Shown piece after piece: positions 20,831-34,798 of a DNA stretch of 64,000 nucleotides. The stretch comes from Leucothrix mucor DSM 2157. Its GTDB lineage: Bacteria; Pseudomonadota; Gammaproteobacteria; Thiotrichales; Thiotrichaceae. The DNA is taken from positions 2,402,655-2,466,654 of the forward strand of contig NZ_ATTE01000001.1 of assembly GCF_000419525.1 (NCBI RefSeq), written 5' to 3'. Positions within the stretch are counted from its first letter, which is position 1. Every line of letters starts with the position of its first letter. The translations under genes and the position numbers were made by a program. The notes under the pieces are model-generated. The model worked only from the letters and a program-made list of their open reading frames with translations, was not told the DNA's origin and did no database searches.

Positions 20831-20980
20831 TCACTTTTTACCTATATCCTTATAAAGTTGCCCATTGAAAATACTTTTTACACATATAACTCTGGCAATC
20901 CGTCGATATTGATTTTATATTAAACCTTCTTGTGGGACGGCGCGACTAGACACTAATAATCAAACAACTCAGGGGTGGCA

Positions 20981-21664
20981 ATGAGAGCACTAATAGTCGA
21001 AGATAATACCGAAATACGGGAAGATCTTACGCGAATTTTGAAAAAAGCAGGCTTTGTAGTAGATGCAGCAGCAGATGGCTCACAAGGCTTGTATTATGCC
21101 CTTGAGTACCCGATAGACATCGCCATTATTGACTTAGGCTTGCCGGAAGTCAGCGGTATGGATATAATCAAAAATATACGCACCAAGAACCTGGATTACC
21201 CCGTGTTAATTCTTACCGCCCGCAACCGCTGGCAGGATAGAGTTGAAGGTCTGGAAGCTGGTGCAGATGACTACCTAGATAAACCTTGCCACCATGAAGA
21301 ACTACTAGCGAGATTGCGTGCACTACTTCGTCGCACAGGACGCTGGGCACAAACAGAGTTCGCTTGCGGCCCGATCCGCCTAAACACTTCAGAGCAGCGC
21401 GTTTATTTACATGATGAAGAAGTATCTCTCACCGCTTATGAGTACAAAGTCCTTCAGCACCTGATGCTACACGCTGGCGAGGTTATCTCTAAAACAGACC
21501 TAACCGAAAGCATGTATGATGATGACTCCGACCGCGATAGCAATGTTATCGAAGTATTTATCCGTCGCTTACGGATGAAGCTTGATAAAGACAATAACTT
21601 GGGGCCGATTGAAACCTTACGTGGCCGCGGCTACCGCTTCACGCTCCCAAGGAACAATCAATAA
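20981..21664 (+). CDS. OmpR/PhoP-type response regulator
   Basis: 227 residues from the ATG at 20981, with AGGGG five bases upstream; a GTG at 20975 is also in frame. The receiver domain has the acidic pocket VEDN, phospho-acceptor D51 in AIIDLGLPE, T79 and K101 in YLDKPCH. The winged-helix output domain ends with RRLRMKLDKD and ETLRGRGYRF. The overall sequence is closest in style to PhoP/QseB. The paired kinase begins 13 bases downstream. Confidence 0.92.
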   Translation: MRALIVEDNTEIREDLTRILKKAGFVVDAAADGSQGLYYALEYPIDIAIIDLGLPEVSGMDIIKNIRTKNLDYPVLILTARNRWQDRVEGLEAGADDYLDKPCHHEELLARLRALLRRTGRWAQTEFACGPIRLNTSEQRVYLHDEEVSLTAYEYKVLQHLMLHAGEVISKTDLTESMYDDDSDRDSNVIEVFIRRLRMKLDKDNNLGPIETLRGRGYRFTLPRNNQ

Positions 21665-21676
21665 ATGTAGGTAACT

Positions 21677-23197
21677 ATGCATCCGGAAGGCAAGGCGTCA
21701 GCAGCAACAAAGACACACAATAGTTTACTTGGGCTGACGAACTCCCTCCGATGGCGGCAGTTGGTTAGCTCACTTGCAATCATTACTGCTGGCCTTGCAG
21801 GCATTGGCACCGCGTACTACCACTTTCAAAATCAGTCCCTGATTAACGAACAGATTGCCCTCTTTGAAAAAGATGGCGTGAGCTTGTTGCTATATGTTGA
21901 ACCCCATCCGACACTTAACTTCCTACTGACTGCTGATAACGCAGTAGACGAGCTTAGGGCTTTTTTAAAGGAACGAAATTTTTCGGAAGTTGGCGACAAC
22001 CCAGCCAGTGAATACTATGCGTACATTCAAGATACCGGCCCAGAAGGCAGTATTGTTTGGTCCACTAAGTACGCTTTTGAGACAGCTCTAAATGGAGAGT
22101 CTCCCTACAAAACCCTGAAGCGTGGCTTTTTAACATTTGATATCAATGTAACGCCCAACAATCCATTTAGCGGCATTCTTAACCCCATTATCCCCCAAGG
22201 TCGAAACTTTAATAACAAAGAACGGGAAAAGCAGAATAGCGATGGTTTTTTGGTCTACGCAAAAGCTTTTAGCTATGCCGACAAAAACTACCAAATGGTA
22301 CTGGCCAAATCCGCCAAAAAAATCAATGAAAGCAAGCAAACCCTTGCTCGCGACCTGCCCAGAGTCGTCATACTTACCACCCTGCTCGTACTAATCGCCC
22401 AACTAGTTGGAAGCTACTTGGTGCTCTCCCCTATCCGCCGCATTGAGAATGAAATCAAGCTGATAGAAGCTGGGGAAAAAGACCTAATCGAACACACCTA
22501 CCCTTACGAATTAACACCCGTCAAAAGCGCGATCAACACGCTTATTCATGCGGAGAAGGGCCAGAAAAAACGCTATCGCGATGCACTTGATAACCTCGCT
22601 CACGCACTCAAAACACCGCTTGCTGCACTGCAAGGCGCCTCCATGCGCTCAACAGATGGCAAGCAAGTGAATCAAGAGTATGTGGATGATCAAATTCAGC
22701 GCATGAATGATATCGTTGCTTACCACTTACGACGCGCCGTTGTCAGCGACCACAATGCTATCGTCAAACTTGAAAGCTTACGCCCAATCTTATTCCGCCT
22801 TCGTGAATCATTGCGCAAAGTCTATTTTGATAAAAATTTCGAGATAGAGATCAATGTGGACGAATACGCACGCTGCCGGGTCGACTACGACGATCTAATG
22901 GAAGTATTCGGAAACCTTCTGAACAACGCTTGCCGCTTCTGCGAATCCAAAGTAACCGTTAGCGCGAATAAAGACGTTGATTTTCTGGTCGTCGATATTG
23001 ATGACGACGGAATGGGCTTTCCTGACAGCAACCCTTCCACCCTACTCACCCGAGGCATGCGTGCCGACAGCAAAACAGAGGGCCAAGGAATTGGCTTAGC
23101 CGTCAGCGCGGAAATCGTGGAAAATGCTGGCGGCAAGATATCGCTAATGATGTCACCCTATGTTGGCGCACGCGTCAGATTACATCTTCCAGCATAA
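21677..23197 (+). CDS. PhoQ-like sensor histidine kinase
   Basis: 506 residues. There are two membrane helices (about 29-48 and 229-250) flanking a periplasmic sensor domain of roughly 180 residues. A short HAMP-like linker (LSPIRRIENEIKLIEAGE) follows, and then the phospho-accepting H309 in NLAHALKTPLAAL. The ATP-binding domain has the N box (NLLNNACRF), the G1 box (DDDGMGF) and the G2 box (GQGIGLAV). The alanine-rich LAHALKTPLAAL H box is typical of PhoQ-type kinases. The ligand is unknown; PhoQ relatives sense divalent cations or envelope stress. Confidence 0.9.
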   Translation: MHPEGKASAATKTHNSLLGLTNSLRWRQLVSSLAIITAGLAGIGTAYYHFQNQSLINEQIALFEKDGVSLLLYVEPHPTLNFLLTADNAVDELRAFLKERNFSEVGDNPASEYYAYIQDTGPEGSIVWSTKYAFETALNGESPYKTLKRGFLTFDINVTPNNPFSGILNPIIPQGRNFNNKEREKQNSDGFLVYAKAFSYADKNYQMVLAKSAKKINESKQTLARDLPRVVILTTLLVLIAQLVGSYLVLSPIRRIENEIKLIEAGEKDLIEHTYPYELTPVKSAINTLIHAEKGQKKRYRDALDNLAHALKTPLAALQGASMRSTDGKQVNQEYVDDQIQRMNDIVAYHLRRAVVSDHNAIVKLESLRPILFRLRESLRKVYFDKNFEIEINVDEYARCRVDYDDLMEVFGNLLNNACRFCESKVTVSANKDVDFLVVDIDDDGMGFPDSNPSTLLTRGMRADSKTEGQGIGLAVSAEIVENAGGKISLMMSPYVGARVRLHLPA

Positions 23198-23203
23198 AAC
23201 AAC

Positions 23204-23272
23204 CGGATAGCGGATAGCGGATAGCGGATAGCGGATAGCGGATAGCGGATAGCGGATAGCGGATAGCGGATA
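23204..23272. repeat. Tandem heptamer repeat, 9 full copies of CGGATAG
   Basis: Nine perfect copies of the 7-bp unit CGGATAG run from 23204 to 23266, with a further six bases (CGGATA) of a tenth copy. The array begins six bases after the stop codon of the kinase gene. A G9 homopolymer follows at about 23344-23352. The 7-bp unit and perfect copies point to recent slippage expansion; a unit of seven would shift frame if it lay inside a gene. Confidence 0.98.
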
Positions 23273-23399
23273 TTATCCACTGAGACTTAAGTAAATGCAG
23301 AAATAAAACCCAGTCTTTGAGGTTTTTTAAGAATTACTTACTGTGGGGGGGGGTAACTTAGACTAACTAGAAAGGTAAGAGCGAAGAGAAAATTTAAAA

Positions 23400-23474
23400 T
23401 GGTGTCCCCACGGGGATTCGAACCCCGATTACCGCCGTGAAAGGGCGATGTCCTAACCGTTAGACGATGGGGAC
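23400..23474 (-). tRNA. tRNA-Glu (UUC), copy nearest the repeat
   Basis: 75 bases including an encoded CCA. The acceptor stem is GTCCCCA/TGGGGAC, and the anticodon loop CCTTTCACG carries TTC. It is identical to the copies at 23505 and 23730, and lies last in a four-gene tRNA-Glu series transcribed on the minus strand. Confidence 0.97.
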
Positions 23475-23504
23475 AATTTTAAATACTTCGTTACTGCAAT
23501 GACA

Positions 23505-23579
23505 TGGTGTCCCCACGGGGATTCGAACCCCGATTACCGCCGTGAAAGGGCGATGTCCTAACCGTTAGACGATGGGGAC
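23505..23579 (-). tRNA. tRNA-Glu (UUC)
   Basis: 75 bases with an encoded CCA and anticodon TTC. Identical to its neighbours at 23400 and 23730. It is separated from the previous copy by 30 bases. Confidence 0.97.
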
Positions 23580-23608
23580 TAAATATCATTTCAAACACGT
23601 TGCCTATT

Positions 23609-23684
23609 TGGCGTCCCCACGGGGACTCGAACCCCGGTTACCGCCGTGAAAGGGCGATGTCCTAGGCCACTAGACGATGGGGAC
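23609..23684 (-). tRNA. tRNA-Glu (UUC), divergent copy
   Basis: 76 bases with an encoded CCA and the same anticodon TTC. It differs from the other three copies in the D loop (one base longer: CTAGTGGCCTAG), in compensatory T-stem positions and in a G discriminator instead of A. It may be a distinct isoacceptor or simply an unconverted ancestral copy. Confidence 0.96.
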
Positions 23685-23729
23685 TCGGAACGTATTCAAA
23701 TTTTAAATGTAGAAAACCACTGTACAACA

Positions 23730-23804
23730 TGGTGTCCCCACGGGGATTCGAACCCCGATTACCGCCGTGAAAGGGCGATGTCCTAACCGTTAGACGATGG
23801 GGAC
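23730..23804 (-). tRNA. tRNA-Glu (UUC), first of four
   Basis: 75 bases with an encoded CCA and anticodon TTC, identical to two others. Its 5' end lies 13 bases after the stop codon of the small membrane protein gene, so processing of this tRNA would also define the 3' end of that mRNA. Confidence 0.97.
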
Positions 23805-23817
23805 ATGGGTACAGCTA

Positions 23818-24039
23818 TTACAACGACGAATCGTCGAATCTGTCTCTACTATCAGGCGAATTCATTAATGTTGTTGTAAGGCCAGCAAAACCAACCATAA
23901 ACCCTATCGGGACAATCATCAAAAAAAACTTCGCCCATTCGCTACTACCGAAAAACATCAAACCAAAACCAGCAACGAGGCCTATTAAGGTTATAACGAA
24001 TCCAATAATTAACAAATATCGGCCTATCTTTAAAGCCAT
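23818..24039 (-). CDS. Small two-helix membrane protein inside a tRNA operon
   Basis: 73 residues. Two hydrophobic helices span about 7-29 (YLLIIGFVITLIGLVAGF) and 35-58, with a charged C-terminus (SPDSRDRFDDSS). I do not recognise a family. It is supported by an AAGGTG sequence just before the ATG, by a membrane-protein composition unlike random sequence, and by filling the space between tRNA-Ala and tRNA-Glu. It would be transcribed from the tRNA-Ala promoter. No function is claimed. Confidence 0.6.
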   Translation of the reverse strand: MALKIGRYLLIIGFVITLIGLVAGFGLMFFGSSEWAKFFLMIVPIGFMVGFAGLTTTLMNSPDSRDRFDDSSL

Positions 24040-24061
24040 AATGCACCTTAAACAATAGCGT

Positions 24062-24137
24062 TGGTGGAGCTAAGCGGGATCGAACCGCTGACCTCTGCAA
24101 TGCCATTGCAGCGCTCTCCCAGCTGAGCTATAGCCCC
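24062..24137 (-). tRNA. tRNA-Ala (GGC)
   Basis: 76 bases with an encoded CCA. The acceptor is GGGGCTA/TAGCTCC, and the anticodon stem CTGCA/TGCAG encloses the loop ATGGCAT, which reads GGC. It is first in the tRNA operon, 22 bases before the small membrane protein gene. Confidence 0.97.
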
Positions 24138-24477: not shown

Positions 24478-27075
24478 ATGAGAATAATAAAAAAGCCGCT
24501 AGGTACAGTGGGCATGCTTGGCTTAGCCTGCTTGCTGCTTCTACCATCCTCCCCCAGCGTAGCTGGCTATAATAACTCTCTCTCTCCACTTGGGATTAAC
24601 ACTAACGAAGTACTTGATGACGATGCCAGCGCACCATTCGTCGACGTGTTTCGCGACAGCACACCATTTGAAGAAGCACGCCCCTGGCTTACCAAGGGCA
24701 ACATCGCTTACGATAAGAACGGCTGGCCGATTCGCCTAAATGGTGGACAGGTTGGTGCACGCTTTATTAACAAGCTACCTGCCGGAACAATTCCGGATGG
24801 CAAATATACCGTTTTATATGACGGCAAAGGCACACTGCAGTACGGAAATGACGCCAAGCTAGTTTCAAAGACGCCTGGCCGCGAAGTAATCTCGATTATC
24901 GCTGGCAAGGATCGTGAAATCAGAGCGACCCTGCTAATTATGAAAACGGATGTTAAAGACCCTATCCGTAATATTCGCATCCTAATGCCGGGCGGAATCT
25001 GCAGTAACAACCCCTATAAGCGAGTGAATGATGCAAGAACGTGTCGTGGCTCAGCATATTTAGCGTTTGAGAAACACTACAAGCGGGTGATTTTCAACCC
25101 TGACTACCTCAGCTACATGAAAGAATTCAAAGTGATTCGCTTCATGAATATGGCAGGTATTACCCGCAACCCGATTAAGGAATGGCATAAACGCCCAATG
25201 CTGAATAAGTCTACTTGGGGTGGAAAGCCAACCGTTCGTGGTGCACCGCTTGAGATTATGATTGAGCTGGCCAACCAAAGTAATGCTGATCCATGGTTCT
25301 CATTGCCGCATGCTGCTGATGATAACTACATGCGCCAGTTTGCACGCTATGTCCGCAAACACCTGAAGCCAAACCTGAAAGCGTACGTTGAATATACCAA
25401 TGAAGCTTGGAACACCATCTTTGACCAAGCGCATTACATGAAAGACATGGGCATGAAATTGAAGCTTGATCCAGATCGCGATAAGGCAGGCTACAAGTAT
25501 TATTCTATGCGCTCAGTACAAGTGTTCAATATGTTTGAGCAAGAGTTTGGCGGTACGCAACGTTTAGTCCGTGTTATGGGCGGCTGGACCGGCTACACCC
25601 GACTAACAGAAATGCTGCTTGGCTACCGTGATGCATATAAAAAGACTGATGCATTTGCGATTGGCCCTTACTTTTACGGTAGCAGCAAGGCCATGATGAA
25701 GGTCCGTTCAGTTAACGACATCTTCAAAATGATCTATGACAAGTCACTGCCGTTTTCAATTCCAGGCGTCAGTAAGTTGATTGGTAAGCACGCTAAGCTC
25801 GCTAAAGGCTTTGGTGTTGATCTAATCGCTTATGAAGGTGGCCAGCATTTGGTTGACTGGAAAAACCGAGACATCAAAAAAGCACCGACCAAATACTTCA
25901 TCGCAGCTAATCGTGACTGGCGCATGGCTAAAGCCTACAAGGACTTCTTGGATGGCTGGAAAAAAGCAGGCGGACAATTGTTTGTGAGCTTCTCAGCTCC
26001 GCGTACTTACCAATGGTTTGGTAGCTGGGGAACTCGCGAGTATCTGACGCAATCTGACAATAAAGCACCTAAGCATCGCGCTCTGATGAGCTTTATCAAG
26101 AGCAACCGCTGCTGGTGGAGAAACTGCAGTAATGCACAGATCGCAAGACTTCCAAAGCCGGCAGTGAACCCTTCCGCAGGTGTGTTTGCCTTAGTGCCTA
26201 ATAACCCTAACTTCAAACCTGCTGCGAAAACAACGACGCTAGCAAAGGCTAAACCAGCAGCAAAACCAGCTCCACGTGCCCCGGTTAAAGCAAAGCCAGC
26301 ACCGGTTGCTAAAACGGCAGTGGCTACAAGCAGACCCGTACAAGCGGTCAGAGCACCGGCTCCAAGACAACAAGTTGCGAAAGCGGCACCTCCACCACGG
26401 GTTGTTGTTATTCCACCGGCACCTCCTGCTCGCCGGGCACCGGTACAGCAACAACGTCGCCAAGTCGCCGCAGCACCTGCTCGCGTTATTAACCGACATG
26501 ATGGCGTGATTAGACAGCGTCGTGGTGGCAATGACTGGAACCGACAGCCAAGTAATCAGCTACGTAATATTGTTGGTGGACACATCAGCAGTGGCGCTGA
26601 CCTAGCTGCAATCTGGCAGACTAGCTGGGACCGCGACTTCCTACACGTTCGGGTAGATACCACTGATGATCGCTTTGTCAGAGATTCTGCTGCGCCGTGG
26701 GGAGATGATTCCATTGAGTTGTTCGTAGACGCTGATGGCTCCAGAAACTCGCGCTTTGACGGTCGTAATGATTTCCACTTCATCTTCCGCTGGCGTGACC
26801 ATAAGGTGAACCTGAGCCAGAGCTCACCTCGCCGTTCGGACTTGGGCATTCAGCAGTCAATGACTCGTCATGCTAATGGCTATACATTGGAAGCCTCAAT
26901 CCCATGGAAAACGCTGGGTGTAATTCCACAGACTGGCTCCATTATCGGCCTGGAAGTTCAAGTGAACGATGATGACACTGGCGCGGATCGTGATGGCAAG
27001 CTGGCGTGGTTTTCTAAAAACGACAACGCTTGGAATAATCCACAAAACTTTGGTCGGATGCTCCTTTCCAACTAA
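24478..27075 (+). CDS. Exported glycosidase-like protein with CBM9-like C-terminal domain
   Basis: 865 residues. A signal peptide (residues 1-30) is followed by a domain with TIM-barrel glycosidase features of clan GH-A. YVEYTNEAWN places an Asn-Glu pair at N308-E309, as at acid/base sites, and LIAYEGGQHLVDW gives E453 as a candidate nucleophile. A Pro/Ala/Lys-rich linker occupies about 575-690. A beta-sandwich at about 695-865, with PWGDDSIELFVDADGSR and YTLEASIPWKTLG, resembles CBM9/DOMON sugar-binding modules. I cannot assign a GH family or substrate; polysaccharide remodelling at the cell surface, sheath or holdfast is plausible. The next gene encodes a paralogue of the catalytic part. 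Confidence 0.72.
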   Translation: MRIIKKPLGTVGMLGLACLLLLPSSPSVAGYNNSLSPLGINTNEVLDDDASAPFVDVFRDSTPFEEARPWLTKGNIAYDKNGWPIRLNGGQVGARFINKLPAGTIPDGKYTVLYDGKGTLQYGNDAKLVSKTPGREVISIIAGKDREIRATLLIMKTDVKDPIRNIRILMPGGICSNNPYKRVNDARTCRGSAYLAFEKHYKRVIFNPDYLSYMKEFKVIRFMNMAGITRNPIKEWHKRPMLNKSTWGGKPTVRGAPLEIMIELANQSNADPWFSLPHAADDNYMRQFARYVRKHLKPNLKAYVEYTNEAWNTIFDQAHYMKDMGMKLKLDPDRDKAGYKYYSMRSVQVFNMFEQEFGGTQRLVRVMGGWTGYTRLTEMLLGYRDAYKKTDAFAIGPYFYGSSKAMMKVRSVNDIFKMIYDKSLPFSIPGVSKLIGKHAKLAKGFGVDLIAYEGGQHLVDWKNRDIKKAPTKYFIAANRDWRMAKAYKDFLDGWKKAGGQLFVSFSAPRTYQWFGSWGTREYLTQSDNKAPKHRALMSFIKSNRCWWRNCSNAQIARLPKPAVNPSAGVFALVPNNPNFKPAAKTTTLAKAKPAAKPAPRAPVKAKPAPVAKTAVATSRPVQAVRAPAPRQQVAKAAPPPRVVVIPPAPPARRAPVQQQRRQVAAAPARVINRHDGVIRQRRGGNDWNRQPSNQLRNIVGGHISSGADLAAIWQTSWDRDFLHVRVDTTDDRFVRDSAAPWGDDSIELFVDADGSRNSRFDGRNDFHFIFRWRDHKVNLSQSSPRRSDLGIQQSMTRHANGYTLEASIPWKTLGVIPQTGSIIGLEVQVNDDDTGADRDGKLAWFSKNDNAWNNPQNFGRMLLSN

Positions 27076-27184
27076 ACGCAACATTCAGTCTGCCGGTATT
27101 CTCGCCGGCAGACTGATCAGCGCTTGAAATCTCATACCCCGCCGTCAATAATGCCCTTCCCTACTCCCTAAGATACTGCCTGCT

Positions 27185-28879
27185 TTGAGACTACTGTTTA
27201 AACTCATCACTCTAATCGTGATCTTGTGCCTACCCGCTGCCGCTGGCTATGTGTTTTATAAACGGGTTTTAAAGCCTAATCCAATCCCACACGCACCTCC
27301 CACAGCTTCAGAGCGCGCCACACTCATTCTGCAAAAGCAACATAGCCGCTATTTACTGGGCACCAACACCAATGAATTGCGTGAAGACAATGCCAGCATC
27401 CCATTTATTGATTTGTTTAAATCATCCATCCCGTTTCCGGATACACACCCTTGGCTAAGCTCGAAAGGTGTTGTTTATGATAAAGATGGCTGGCCAGTCG
27501 ATCTAAAAGGCGGCGTTGCAGGGACTAAATTCTTAAATCGACTGCCTGCGGGTACGGTTCCGGATGGCTTGTATACCGTGCTCTATGAGGGTGCTGGTGA
27601 GCTGCAATATGGCAATGATGCTCGCTTAGTTTCCCGACAGCCCGACAAAGACATCATTGAGATTAAAGCCGGAAAAGATCAGATTTTAAATGCATCACTG
27701 ATCATAAAATCGATTAATGCCAGCAATCCACTACGTAATATCAAAGTGTTATTACCCGGCGGAATCTGTGAGGGAAACCCTTATCGCAGAGTGGACTCCA
27801 ATACAGCCTGCGGCAAACAGCGCTACTTGTCATTTGATCAGCATCACGCACAGCTTCTGTTTAACCCTGACTACCTAAACTTTATGAAGGACTTTCGGGT
27901 AATACGGTTTATGAATATGGCCGGCATGACTCGCAACCCTGTTGAGCAATGGTCCGCACGCAATACGCTGGATAAATCGACCTGGGCAGGCAAAGAAGGC
28001 ACTCGCGGTGCACCGCTTGAGGTGATGGTCGCTCTCGCTAATCGCTTGCAGGCTGATGCTTGGTTTTCAATGCCGCACCGAGCCAGTGATGATTATATTC
28101 GTGAGTTTTCAAGCTACGCAGCAAAGCACCTTAATCCTTCACTGAAAGTCTATGTCGAATACAGTAATGAAGTTTGGAACAATATCTTCATCCATAAAAA
28201 ATACGCAATAGAGCAAGGTTTAATACGAAATCTAGATACCGACCCTCAAACGGCAGGAATCAAGTTTTACGCTAAACGCAGCGTCGAGGTATTTAAATTA
28301 TGGGAAAACACGTTTGGCGGGACTCAGCGCTTACTCAGAACCCTATCAGGATGGTCTGCGAATGAACGACTGACCAGTCAACTGCTCTCCTACGAGCAAA
28401 CCCATCGCTACACCGATGTATTTGCGATTGCACCCTACTTCTACGCTTTGCCTAAAGAGCTTCGAAAAGCGAGCACTGTAGACGACATTTTTGAGTTGAT
28501 GCTAGATAAAGGCTCAAACTACGGATTAAGTGCTAGCATTGAGCAAATGCAAACGCAGGTCGAACTAGCGAATGAGTTTGGTGTGGAGTTAGTCGCTTAT
28601 GAAGGTGGACAGCACTTGGTCGACTGGGAAACCCGCACCGTTGAGGCACATCCAAACCCACTACTCTATGCTGCAAATCGTGATCCGCGAATGGGAGAGC
28701 TCTATGGTCGCTATCTAAGTGCTTGGAAAGCGAGCGGAGCTAAAGTGTTTGTGCATTTTAGCGCCCCACGCATCTATAGCTGGTACGGAAGCTGGGGAGC
28801 TAAGGAATATATTTCTCAGCCTCGTGAGCAAGCACCTAAATACGATGCATTGCTCAACTATTTAGAGGCTAATCGTTAG
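27185..28879 (+). CDS. Membrane-anchored paralogue of the glycosidase-like protein
   Basis: 564 residues starting with TTG at 27185; no ATG lies in frame nearby, and no clear ribosome-binding site is seen. An N-terminal hydrophobic segment (about 4-25) without an obvious cleavage site should anchor it. The rest aligns along its length with the barrel domain of the preceding protein, for example FNPDYLNFMKDFRVIRFMN. It keeps N328-E329 in YVEYSNEVWN and E473 in VAYEGGQHLVDW. It lacks the linker and CBM9-like module. The pair arose by duplication: one product is secreted and sugar-binding, the other membrane-tethered. The substrate is unknown. Confidence 0.68.
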   Translation: MRLLFKLITLIVILCLPAAAGYVFYKRVLKPNPIPHAPPTASERATLILQKQHSRYLLGTNTNELREDNASIPFIDLFKSSIPFPDTHPWLSSKGVVYDKDGWPVDLKGGVAGTKFLNRLPAGTVPDGLYTVLYEGAGELQYGNDARLVSRQPDKDIIEIKAGKDQILNASLIIKSINASNPLRNIKVLLPGGICEGNPYRRVDSNTACGKQRYLSFDQHHAQLLFNPDYLNFMKDFRVIRFMNMAGMTRNPVEQWSARNTLDKSTWAGKEGTRGAPLEVMVALANRLQADAWFSMPHRASDDYIREFSSYAAKHLNPSLKVYVEYSNEVWNNIFIHKKYAIEQGLIRNLDTDPQTAGIKFYAKRSVEVFKLWENTFGGTQRLLRTLSGWSANERLTSQLLSYEQTHRYTDVFAIAPYFYALPKELRKASTVDDIFELMLDKGSNYGLSASIEQMQTQVELANEFGVELVAYEGGQHLVDWETRTVEAHPNPLLYAANRDPRMGELYGRYLSAWKASGAKVFVHFSAPRIYSWYGSWGAKEYISQPREQAPKYDALLNYLEANR

Positions 28880-29740: not shown

Positions 29741-31962
<2,222 letters not shown>

Positions 31963-31967
31963 TGTTA

Positions 31968-33146
31968 TCATCCTGTTGTTGGTAGGCTATTTTTTAGATT
32001 AGCTCGCAGCTTTTGCTTGCCTGCTGAGTTTATTTTTTTAAATGCCTTGTAGAAATTAAACGCGCTAAGACGATACTGGCTTGGTGTCCATACTAGCCGG
32101 TACATCGGTGTTGCCTTAGCGGCATATTGTTGTTTTTTATATGATTGCTCATTGTCATCAAACATAAAGTCGAAGCAGTTACCCTGCTCCATCGCCAAAC
32201 CGATCTCATTGCAGACCTGGTAAAACAGCGGCATATAACGATTAGCGTTCTCACGATAAAATGCACTTTGGTAGTAGTGCACCTGATGCTTATCGGTAAA
32301 TGCGTAATAACTACTAAGCGGCTTATCATTTAGCGTTAACACTTTGATATAGGCTTTGCCTTGCGGAATTAATCGCGCCAGAATGCGCTGATGAAATGCC
32401 ATAAAGCGAGTCGATTCAAAAATCAGAAAATCGGCTCGATTCTCCCAACGATCACGATGCATCGCGCGCAACTCTTCTAAGGACTCCTTCACATTACCCG
32501 CATTGGAAACCACCACATTGACGTTTCCATCCCGATCAAAGAGACGATTCTTTTTACGGTAATCCTTCTGCCAGCGATTCGGAATTGTCTCAAGATACTC
32601 AGACTGAGTGGCAACCTGTGGCACCTGATAACGGTAACCGTAGGGATAAACTTGGCTTTTAATGCCCTGCTCTGATCGCTTAAAGCATCGGAAAATTAAA
32701 GAGTTTTCTTGTAAGAAGTCGAATTCTGCAAAATCCCAACGGCGCTGATAACGATTAACCGTCGCTTCAACACTTTTAACAACCGCATCCTCATAGCCTG
32801 GCCTTACCAGCAAATCGACAAAGGGCGTAGCAATACTGTCTTCAATGTGTTCGCCAGAAGCCAGAAACCGTAAGGTCCGGCCTTGAATATAGGCATGTGG
32901 ATACTTGCGCTCAACCTGAAACGGCGCGATACCAACCAGCAAGTTATTATCGTAATAACTGAGAATGAATAGATCCCGACGATCTGTATCCGAAAACGTC
33001 TCCCACCAGGTGTACATCCAATCCCAACTGGAAAAAATCGTCGAGCGCTCAGCAACTTCATACAGTGCATTCCATTCACTCTGCAACGCTGCAAAGGCAA
33101 AGGTACAGCTAATTAGGTTGAGCTGGAGTGATTGATTTGAGTTCAT
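31968..33146 (-). CDS. GNAT-family (BioF2/CelD-like) acyltransferase
   Basis: 392 residues from the ATG at 33146, which overlaps the upstream stop by ATGA. The region resembles the acetyltransferase_6/CelD group found in polysaccharide loci: FSSWDWMYTWWETF near the N-terminus, KDYRKKNRLFDRDG in the middle, and HYYQSAFYRENANRYMPLFY near the end. These enzymes may transfer acyl or aminoacyl groups to a glycan or peptidoglycan precursor. It is tightly linked to the GT4 gene downstream and the propeller gene upstream. Confidence 0.78.
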   Translation of the reverse strand: MNSNQSLQLNLISCTFAFAALQSEWNALYEVAERSTIFSSWDWMYTWWETFSDTDRRDLFILSYYDNNLLVGIAPFQVERKYPHAYIQGRTLRFLASGEHIEDSIATPFVDLLVRPGYEDAVVKSVEATVNRYQRRWDFAEFDFLQENSLIFRCFKRSEQGIKSQVYPYGYRYQVPQVATQSEYLETIPNRWQKDYRKKNRLFDRDGNVNVVVSNAGNVKESLEELRAMHRDRWENRADFLIFESTRFMAFHQRILARLIPQGKAYIKVLTLNDKPLSSYYAFTDKHQVHYYQSAFYRENANRYMPLFYQVCNEIGLAMEQGNCFDFMFDDNEQSYKKQQYAAKATPMYRLVWTPSQYRLSAFNFYKAFKKINSAGKQKLRANLKNSLPTTG

Positions 33147-34798
33147 TTTTGACGATACCGCGAGTGCTTCCGCAAAGCATCTGCTACTGCAATCTGTGGG
33201 TTGAAATTCAAAGTATGGAGTGCAATTAAATCTTGGTCCCAATCAGGTCGGCAAACCTGCTCTGTCACTTCTTGGTAAGTATCAGGGTCAAGCTGGCAAA
33301 TCCGATTGATATTTAGACCTGCGCCATAGCTGCCAGCACAGTCCTGAGAAGGTCGGTAAACCTGATCATTCCAGTTGAAAAATTGACCTGCAGGTCGAGC
33401 CTTCGAGGCATCACTGATCACTGGGTTCTGCGTATGTGCCTGCCAAGACTGGCTTAGTGGTGAGTCGGCATAGAACAAGTGCAATTCTTCGCAACCAGAA
33501 AGGCCCACTTCGATTGCCACCGTCACAAATAACCACCAACTCCCTTCATATTCCAGCAACGTAGAGTCATAAGCCGCTAAATCACTAATCAGTGTATGAG
33601 CAAACTCCCACTGATAAGGAAATGAGGTGCAGCGATAAAGATCAATCGTGCCATTATCGCCAGACTCCGGAATCATATAAAACGCAGATTCGTACTCGAA
33701 AACGTTCGGATAAGACAGGTGATAGTCTTTCTTTAAGATGGTGGCTGGAGCGCTATGAGTTCCATCCTCAAATACTTCCATACACGACAAGTGCCCACGC
33801 TCTGTGGCAAATGGTAACTCCTCAAAAAAGACAAAATGCTGCCCTTCCCGACTCACGACAAAAGGGTCTGCCCAAAAGCAATCAGCAGACGGGACTAATT
33901 CCTGGTACTCACCAAAAGCCAGCGGCAAACTCTGCCCTGACTTATCTGAATGATTAAATCGAATCAGTATTCGCCACTGCTCTTGGGTTAAAAATTTCTG
34001 CTGTAGTTTGGCAAGCAAATGAGAGCCGAATTGGTAGTAAGCACTTACTTGATCCATGGCCGGCACAGGAGACTTAGCTGAAGAAACTGACAGTGAGTTA
34101 TAATCTGATGCTGAACTAAGTTCGTTTTCTAAGCTTGATTTGGAGCTCGCTTCTAGCAAAGAAGCTGATAAGGCTGCTGAATCATTATTCTGAAGTGTTT
34201 TATTAAGCGCCCGTGCCCACAGGTGATTCATCAACACCCAATAATAATTAAGGTTTCGGGCATATGAACCACTATCCAGACTAGGAAGCGCCTCGCTTAA
34301 AACAAACTGCTGATCAGGGTTTGCTATCAGTGAAACCGCTAAACGAGTCTGTACAGCGTTTTTGCTGTATTCACTCAACCCCAAGCACCAAGAAGAGAGG
34401 GAGTCCGAATCGGAAAAACTTGCCCGCAACACGCCTAGCTTGGCTAGAGGTATCAACTTCTGAGCAATATCAAACTCAGTGAAATCAATAACTACATCGC
34501 AATCTGCCAACTCAAACTCGGCTAATTGAGATTCTGAAACGGTAACAACCTCACCAAAAACACTAAGCTCAGCAGACTCAAATGCAGGCATTGGTGAACG
34601 AAATACTAAAGCATCCAAACGATGCAAAGATTTTATCGCCAATGGCACATGAGCCGCTGACTTCCCTAGACTAATCACTTGAGAAATTCTGATTAACTGC
34701 TGATCTAGCAGCAACTGAACCACATTTAACTGCCAACGCCACAGTACGCTGGAGCGTGCAATTATGCTGACAGATAAGCCGTGAGGATGATGGTTCAT
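33143..34798 (-). CDS. Two-domain formyltransferase-like / GH43-like propeller protein
   Basis: 551 residues. The C-terminal half (about 280-540) has repeated beta-propeller motifs, such as SADCFWADPFVVSREG, YHLSYPNVFEYESAFYMIP and STLLEYEGSWWLFVT. These resemble the bacterial proteins related to glucosamine inositolphosphorylceramide transferase. The N-terminal half looks like the formyltransferase-type domain that accompanies this propeller, but degenerate, with few invariant residues. A serine-rich insert lies between about 215 and 245. It likely acts on surface glycan or lipid with the two downstream genes. Reaction unknown. Confidence 0.62.
   Translation of the reverse strand: MNHHPHGLSVSIIARSSVLWRWQLNVVQLLLDQQLIRISQVISLGKSAAHVPLAIKSLHRLDALVFRSPMPAFESAELSVFGEVVTVSESQLAEFELADCDVVIDFTEFDIAQKLIPLAKLGVLRASFSDSDSLSSWCLGLSEYSKNAVQTRLAVSLIANPDQQFVLSEALPSLDSGSYARNLNYYWVLMNHLWARALNKTLQNNDSAALSASLLEASSKSSLENELSSASDYNSLSVSSAKSPVPAMDQVSAYYQFGSHLLAKLQQKFLTQEQWRILIRFNHSDKSGQSLPLAFGEYQELVPSADCFWADPFVVSREGQHFVFFEELPFATERGHLSCMEVFEDGTHSAPATILKKDYHLSYPNVFEYESAFYMIPESGDNGTIDLYRCTSFPYQWEFAHTLISDLAAYDSTLLEYEGSWWLFVTVAIEVGLSGCEELHLFYADSPLSQSWQAHTQNPVISDASKARPAGQFFNWNDQVYRPSQDCAGSYGAGLNINRICQLDPDTYQEVTEQVCRPDWDQDLIALHTLNFNPQIAVADALRKHSRYRQK

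Follow-up and report, generated by a model that had tools for sequence, protein, structure and literature searches.

PslG is a periplasmic exopolysaccharide hydrolase of glycoside hydrolase family 39 (GH39), for which holding in the inner membrane has been proposed. Enzymes of clan GH-A carry an Asn-Glu pair at the end of barrel strand 4 and a further Glu at strand 7, together with an Arg at strand 2 and a Tyr after strand 6 that are found clan-wide, and their barrels are capable of transglycosylation. Here we describe two neighbouring genes of Leucothrix mucor DSM 2157, gene 1 and gene 2, which lie in a window of 64,000 nucleotides (the whole stretch of DNA analysed, G000:C1:2402655-2466654, from a source genome of 5.19 Mb). 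We favour, with moderate confidence, the reading that both encode exported retaining clan GH-A-type glycoside hydrolases which cut the cell's own exopolysaccharide, whether sheath, holdfast or mucous matrix. Relative loci in the genome collection numbered ten (from Leucothrix, Cocleimonas, other Thiotrichaceae and one unplaced proteobacterial metagenome-assembled genome); labels beginning with L and G denote sampled loci and genomes, and "own" refers to the L. mucor genome.

Gene 1 (P0001, 24478-27075, forward strand, ATG start; from the list of open reading frames (ORFs) and domain search) encodes a predicted secreted clan-A-like glycosidase of 865 amino acids. It consists of a putative signal-peptide-like N-terminus (about residues 1-29, 24478-24564, judged from the sequence and its hydrophobic stretch), a catalytic module (residues 38-544, 24589-26109, delimited by the gap-free match to gene 2 and by the family profile), a linker rich in Pro, Ala, Lys and Arg (about residues 575-686, 26200-26535, from the sequence) and a carbohydrate-binding module (CBM) of family 9 (residues 687-864, 26536-27069). 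The CBM9 assignment comes from PF06452 (E 4.7e-39, 134.6 bits against a curated cut-off of 23.4, profile positions 9-183 of 185) and from a phmmer match to the CBM9 structure 1i82 (E 2.5e-19). Gene 2 (P0002, 27185-28879, forward strand, TTG start; from the ORF list and a structure model) encodes a predicted N-terminally anchored clan-A-like glycosidase of 564 amino acids. Its putative membrane anchor (about residues 3-25, 27191-27259) coincides with the best 19-residue hydropathy mean (2.35, residues 3-21) and with a helix at residues 2-29 of the model, and the protein ends straight after the barrel, with no match to a CBM. In pairwise alignment the two proteins share 51% identity and 71% similarity along 507 residues with zero gaps; the predicted acid/base motif reads YVEYTNEAWN in gene 1 and YVEYSNEVWN in gene 2, and AYEGGQHLVDW is common to both. 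A preliminary description of this DNA had reported the two ORFs, their positions and the NE.WN and YEGGQH motifs, which the ORF list and translations bear out, and had portrayed one copy as secreted with a Pro/Ala linker and a CBM9-like domain and the other as tethered and without a CBM, in agreement with the architecture given above.

The same description had left the family unassigned, and we likewise found no named family in Pfam, NCBIfam or the PDB. The catalytic parts of both genes gave no significant match to Pfam, NCBIfam or PDB sequences (best values at chance level, E 0.1 to 0.94), profiles of 20 or 18 diverse relatives gave no match among PDB sequences, and 20 relatives searched against Pfam at E up to 1 matched zero glycosidase models, that of GH51 included. 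Membership of GH39, GH51 or GH5 was therefore rejected, as there was no sequence match: for GH39, PF01229 was not matched and hhalign of 18 members against a small set of five GH39-type sequences returned a probability of 0.3%, while a search for GH51 matched 1 of 150 genomes, too few to build a profile set from. No paper on this family was found in a literature search, which left most subscription journals uncovered. The pair are members of a real, unnamed family within a known clan, without a Pfam or NCBIfam model.

The structure model of gene 2, built from 16 sequences (predicted local distance difference test score (pLDDT) 83.7, predicted template modelling score 0.85, poor at residues 85-88, 484-489 and 527-541), is a (β/α)8 barrel with eight strands in order (residues 57-61, 239-242, 291-296, 322-326, 383-388, 412-415, 468-476 and 521-524). 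Asn328-Glu329 stands directly after strand 4 and Glu473 within strand 7, and Arg241 and Tyr418 occupy the places of the clan-wide Arg and Tyr, so that barrel, Asn-Glu and Glu placement and Arg/Tyr placement all follow clan GH-A, by model and conservation. On this basis Glu329 (codon 28169-28171) is the predicted acid/base and Glu473 (codon 28601-28603) the predicted nucleophile; by alignment they correspond to Glu309 (codon 25402-25404) and Glu453 (codon 25834-25836) of gene 1. Arg241, Asn328 and Glu329 are found in 91 of 91 family sequences, and Tyr418 and Glu473 in 90 of 91, the exception being the most divergent member (L109:7353-9416), which aligns without Glu473, Tyr418 and the NE.W pattern and is either misaligned or a non-catalytic branch. 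Structure and conservation together argue strongly for a catalytic role of the family, and both proteins would act by a retaining mechanism. The preliminary description had called the fold GH-A-like, and the two glutamates, one at the C-terminal end of strand 4 and one at that of strand 7, support this; it had also named, as refuting signs, a barrel active site lacking these residues or a confident match to a non-catalytic family, and neither was seen with the model. One of its suggestions is not supported as worded, namely a division into a soluble binder and an anchored enzyme, because both proteins keep the whole catalytic set and the secreted protein is thus not merely a binder.

A Foldseek search of the model against the PDB ranked GH51 arabinofuranosidases first (E 8.7e-7), and structural re-alignment gave Z scores of 23.6 for GH51, 22.2 for a bacterial heparanase (which we take to be GH79), up to 22.0 for GH5 and 20.3 for GH39, in a list of fold matches where absence excludes no structural family. 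A β-sandwich of about residues 104-203 is inserted after strand 1 and makes up most of the N-terminal region which had earlier defied placement. Modelled alone, between barrel strands 1 and 2 (residues 92-222, 27458-27850), it reached a pLDDT of 93.8 and resembled several small β-sandwiches weakly, and searching it alone gave no clear known fold (best Foldseek E 0.14, best Z 5.0).

The family is present throughout its taxonomic family, where a profile search at E up to 1e-10 matched 63 of 63 genomes (8 genera) and gave 3-15 matched pieces per genome. With the limit set at E 1e-20, matches were found in 13 of 398 genomes drawn from the phylum (the own genome included, nine in one family), in 6 of 289 drawn from the class of G197 (G197 and two other known matches among the six) and in 9 of 274 drawn from the own class (two from the own family). 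These draws show the family to be rare outside its taxonomic family. The own genome holds 13 family genes, the window pair and 11 ORFs elsewhere (16 matched pieces in one search and 15 in another, in which the most divergent gene was split in three), in all of which NE.W and YE(G/A)G are conserved; the family has undergone a clear lineage expansion. The copies vary in anchoring, with signal-peptide-like starts, N-terminal helices and, by eye, two lipobox-like starts (L022 and L025), and a CBM9 match was obtained for gene 1, for L020 and for both L023 copies but for none of L019, L025 and gene 2, the remaining own copies lying outside the full-length scan. The divergent copy L022:6723-9428, one of the two lipobox-like proteins, lies beside murA-hisG-type genes as judged by eye, and at the same place in another genus (L110, L114, L116 and L117) there is a CBM-length copy which is a different family member. 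A mobile origin was considered and rejected: no phage record matches the family, and 25 plasmid records carry relatives, yet all at less than 60% identity. Among the plasmid relatives listed, some are unnamed and others carry labels such as "hypothetical protein", "calcium-binding protein", "cadherin-like domain-containing protein" and "ABC transporter substrate-binding protein".

The pair had been described as duplicated, a term which fits poorly with 13 copies in the genome and with window genes that are not each other's nearest relatives. The nearest own paralogue of gene 2 lies at G000:C1:232840 (57% identity), and a tree of 82 rows (quick method, long branches flagged, seven rows dropped, namely six fragments of less than 400 residues and L109) places gene 2 in one group with L020 and the second genes of Cocleimonas-type pairs (support 95), and gene 1 with the first genes of these pairs (support 99). 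A simple tandem duplication was therefore rejected. L020 is a relative of gene 2 elsewhere in the own genome and bears a CBM9-like tail. We also read 11 tandem pairs from two other genera, picked among the matches listed because two matches lay close together. All 11 combine a gene 1-type member carrying a tail of 275-342 residues with a gene 2- or L020-type partner which has a hydrophobic N-terminus (by eye) and a C-terminal tail of 181-229 residues, and this partner tail matched CBM9 in 3 of 3 second genes scanned (L014, L168 and L172). Because the same layout recurs in all of these pairs, the combination of a secreted and an anchored protein is old; it is not universal, since in genus g8 the listed copies that were read lie far apart (in G047, for example, by about 85 kb). 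The CBM-less form of gene 2 is in turn a late change, in which the Leucothrix-type second gene lost its tail, as anchored partners elsewhere carry one.

Neighbourhoods in other lineages bear on what the enzymes may cut. Around nine loci of a second class, presumably the Alphaproteobacteria, 83 neighbour ORFs included five Polysacc_synt_3 (flippases), four Bac_transf (sugar transferases), five Glycos_transf_1 and five Glycos_transf_2 members, whereas among 104 control ORFs of the same nine genomes each of these four families had fewer than two members and Glyco_tranf_2_4 alone among the glycosyltransferase families had two. The nine come from 12 phylum-level loci, L101 (a 25 kb contig with no room for a control), L105 (size, together with its control L127) and L109 (divergence) having been left out; the counts refer to the first 25 families listed, single-member families of either set falling partly outside, the ORFs of both sets were called mechanically and include non-genes (the match at L103, for instance, is overlaid by an antisense ORF), and the control is small, with one region per genome taken at round coordinates. 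In a set of eight loci in other lineages, wzy and wzx lie directly upstream in the order wzy, wzx, enzyme at two, a third has a Wzy_C gene at a distance of 3.3 kb, and a fourth has sugar-nucleotide genes, of the UDP-glucose dehydrogenase and phosphomannomutase types, at 2.5-4 kb. Plasmid relatives in Shinella, Roseobacter and Paracoccus stand among glycosyltransferase, export and polymerase genes, and one in Neorhizobium stands near Wzy_C and group-1 and group-2 glycosyltransferase genes. The CBM9 of gene 1 and the fusions of the family module to CBM2 and, in a single chain, to GH16 also speak for this reading. There is, in our view, a fair case for work of the family on the cell's own matrix.

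These proteins might instead be foraging enzymes, which would feed the cell by digesting polysaccharides from algae or from other organisms. Leucothrix lives on seaweeds, and such a lifestyle, the secreted CBM9 form, the number of copies and the fusion of the module to CBM2 in one relative (E 2e-23) would all suit this explanation. It is also favoured by two neighbourhoods which fit uptake of the products as food. A relative in Rhizobium sp. BG6 (L030:7296-13200, with a Tat-like start) lies directly 3' of a sugar-type ATP-binding cassette (ABC) transporter, complete with binding protein, two permeases and MalK-like ATPase, which ends about 230 bases before it on the same strand. Near the own copy L027 there are a PfkB kinase, at a distance of about 3.5 kb, and, further off, a periplasmic sugar-binding-type protein and a permease. 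Both of these weigh against action on the cell's own polymer, as do several other observations. Four of the eight loci just mentioned (L149, L150, L151 and L153) are without polysaccharide genes by eye, and these include G974, a genome from the family to which the two with wzy and wzx also belong; the neighbourhoods in Sulfitobacter and Gloeothece are weakly polysaccharide-like; copies in the own and related genomes stand mostly alone among housekeeping genes; the own genome has one GH16; and the sole glycan-type genes near the window pair are three on the opposite strand at 30832-34798, encoding GT4, GNAT (Acetyltransf_6) and GINT1_N proteins by domain search, a trio also present in L009, L010 and L018.

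Nevertheless, we regard foraging as an unlikely explanation. The family occurs in every one of the 63 genomes, against 8 of 63 for GH16 and 17 of 63 for GH5 (among seven Leucothrix-type genomes, GH5 is found in none and GH16 in four, the own included), a membrane-anchored partner accompanies the secreted protein in each of the 11 tandem pairs, and neighbourhoods with wzy, wzx and glycosyltransferases outnumber those with transporters. Action on the cell's own matrix, as proposed in the preliminary description, draws support from neighbourhoods in other lineages, and is countered by those of L030 and L027, which point to sugar uptake. The L030 arrangement hints that the enzymes of that branch may serve in feeding or recycling.

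Structural or binding proteins, in which the barrel would cross-link or sense the matrix without catalysis, are a quite improbable explanation. In its favour are the many copies, with varied anchors and modules, and the lack of a Pfam or NCBIfam model, but mere binders would be expected to lose the catalytic set in some copies, and here 90 or 91 of 91 sequences retain it, some of them only about 24% identical to gene 2. Equally improbable are transglycosylases or controllers of polymer length, which would join or set chains and not degrade them, a notion that can appeal to the wzy-wzx-enzyme order in two genomes, to the membrane anchor and to the transglycosylating capacity of clan-A barrels, although the present evidence does not separate hydrolysis from transfer.

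If both proteins are hydrolases of the cell's own exopolysaccharide, the N-terminal helix of gene 2 would fix it in the inner membrane. Anchored in this way, its barrel would lie in the periplasm instead of on the outer surface, and the enzyme may trim or clear polymer on its way out. Gene 1 would be released, bind the polymer through its CBM9 and remodel it outside, and this remodelling could serve filament growth, gonidia release and attachment. We infer the compartments of both proteins, as well as the own polysaccharide as their substrate. Thiothrix, like the relatives of Leucothrix, belongs to the Thiotrichaceae, and its sheath is regarded as a glucosaminoglucan, a term with no occurrence in the papers listed by one literature search. 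Thiothrix is reported to form rosettes and polysaccharide sheaths, and rosettes, gonidia and polysaccharide sheaths are known features of the organism group (PMC9319827; PMC3368414); the second of these papers calls the sheath layers of Thiothrix nivea "of so far unknown structure" (PMC3368414). A broader proposal, which we put forward tentatively and hold to be possible rather than probable, is that this unclassified clan-A family is a common glycan-processing toolkit of filamentous, attached sulfur bacteria, working in two compartments through an anchored, periplasm-facing enzyme and a released, CBM-bearing one, with 13 genes here, and that it shapes sheath and holdfast polysaccharides. Should the enzymes act on the own polymer, they would be tools to identify sheath and holdfast polysaccharides and might serve in biofilm or bulking control, and the gene pair offers a simple test of where matrix trimming happens.

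L009, L010 and L018 preserve the gene order around the pair, and L011 does so in part. A hairpin lies just 3' of the gene 1 stop codon (27085-27116, forward strand, z -5.8), with no clear T run, and a hairpin occupies the same place in all five Leucothrix-type loci (z -3.8 to -7.6), although the stems are unrelated in sequence. The start codon of gene 2 is TTG in these five loci and ATG in 3 of 3 Cocleimonas-type loci. The strong hairpin after gene 1 and the TTG start suggest, without proof, that gene 2 may be made in smaller amounts than gene 1. Upstream, a riboswitch or hidden gene was considered for the 1.28 kb gap before gene 1 and rejected, as the gap holds four tRNA-Glu(UUC) genes and one tRNA-Ala(GGC) gene (23400-24137, reverse strand, between two-component genes and gene 1), a cluster kept in L009, L010 and L018. 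Between the tRNA genes, a small hydrophobic ORF of 73 residues (23818-24039, reverse strand) lies in a DNA stretch well conserved in four loci, and upstream of the cluster, at about 23200-23280, there are some nine tandem copies of a CGGATAG unit which were not seen in L009, L010 and L018. The two-component genes (20975-23197) encode a response regulator, 95-99% identical in L009, L010 and L018, and a histidine kinase, 58-64% identical, in the same order there; they are a possible regulator. Elsewhere in the window, dsr-type sulfur genes are present by eye.

Compared with described systems, gene 1 shares its binding module with Thermotoga xylanase 10A, whose CBM9 (1i82) aligns over nearly the whole domain (E 2.7e-20 in a separate alignment) with Trp kept in gene 1 at both positions of the pair which sandwiches the sugar; it differs in that the CBM9 of gene 1 is joined to another catalytic module through a long basic Pro/Ala linker. 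GH51 α-L-arabinofuranosidases provide the best barrel match (296 residues aligned, root-mean-square deviation 3.2, 10% identity), but gene 2 carries the extra β-sandwich after strand 1, and GH51 enzymes have a C-terminal β-sandwich domain which gene 2 is without, because the alignment reaches the end of gene 2 at about residue 386 of the 499-residue GH51 chain, with nothing beyond. Enzymes of GH16, whose fold is a jelly roll, differ from gene 1 and gene 2 in both fold and sequence family, although one Paracoccus chain carries GH16 together with the family module and RTX repeats. A functional likeness exists with GH16 enzymes of exopolysaccharide pathways such as PrmQ of Sphingomonas, a predicted exported hydrolase of a pathway which is reported to be tied to rugose colony form (PMC11340318). 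PslG-type enzymes of GH39 are set apart by sequence, as the PF01229 and hhalign comparisons indicate; nevertheless, a GH39 xylosidase is among the structural matches of gene 2, and the job proposed for gene 2, that of a membrane-held periplasmic enzyme beside polysaccharide export, would be of the PslG type.

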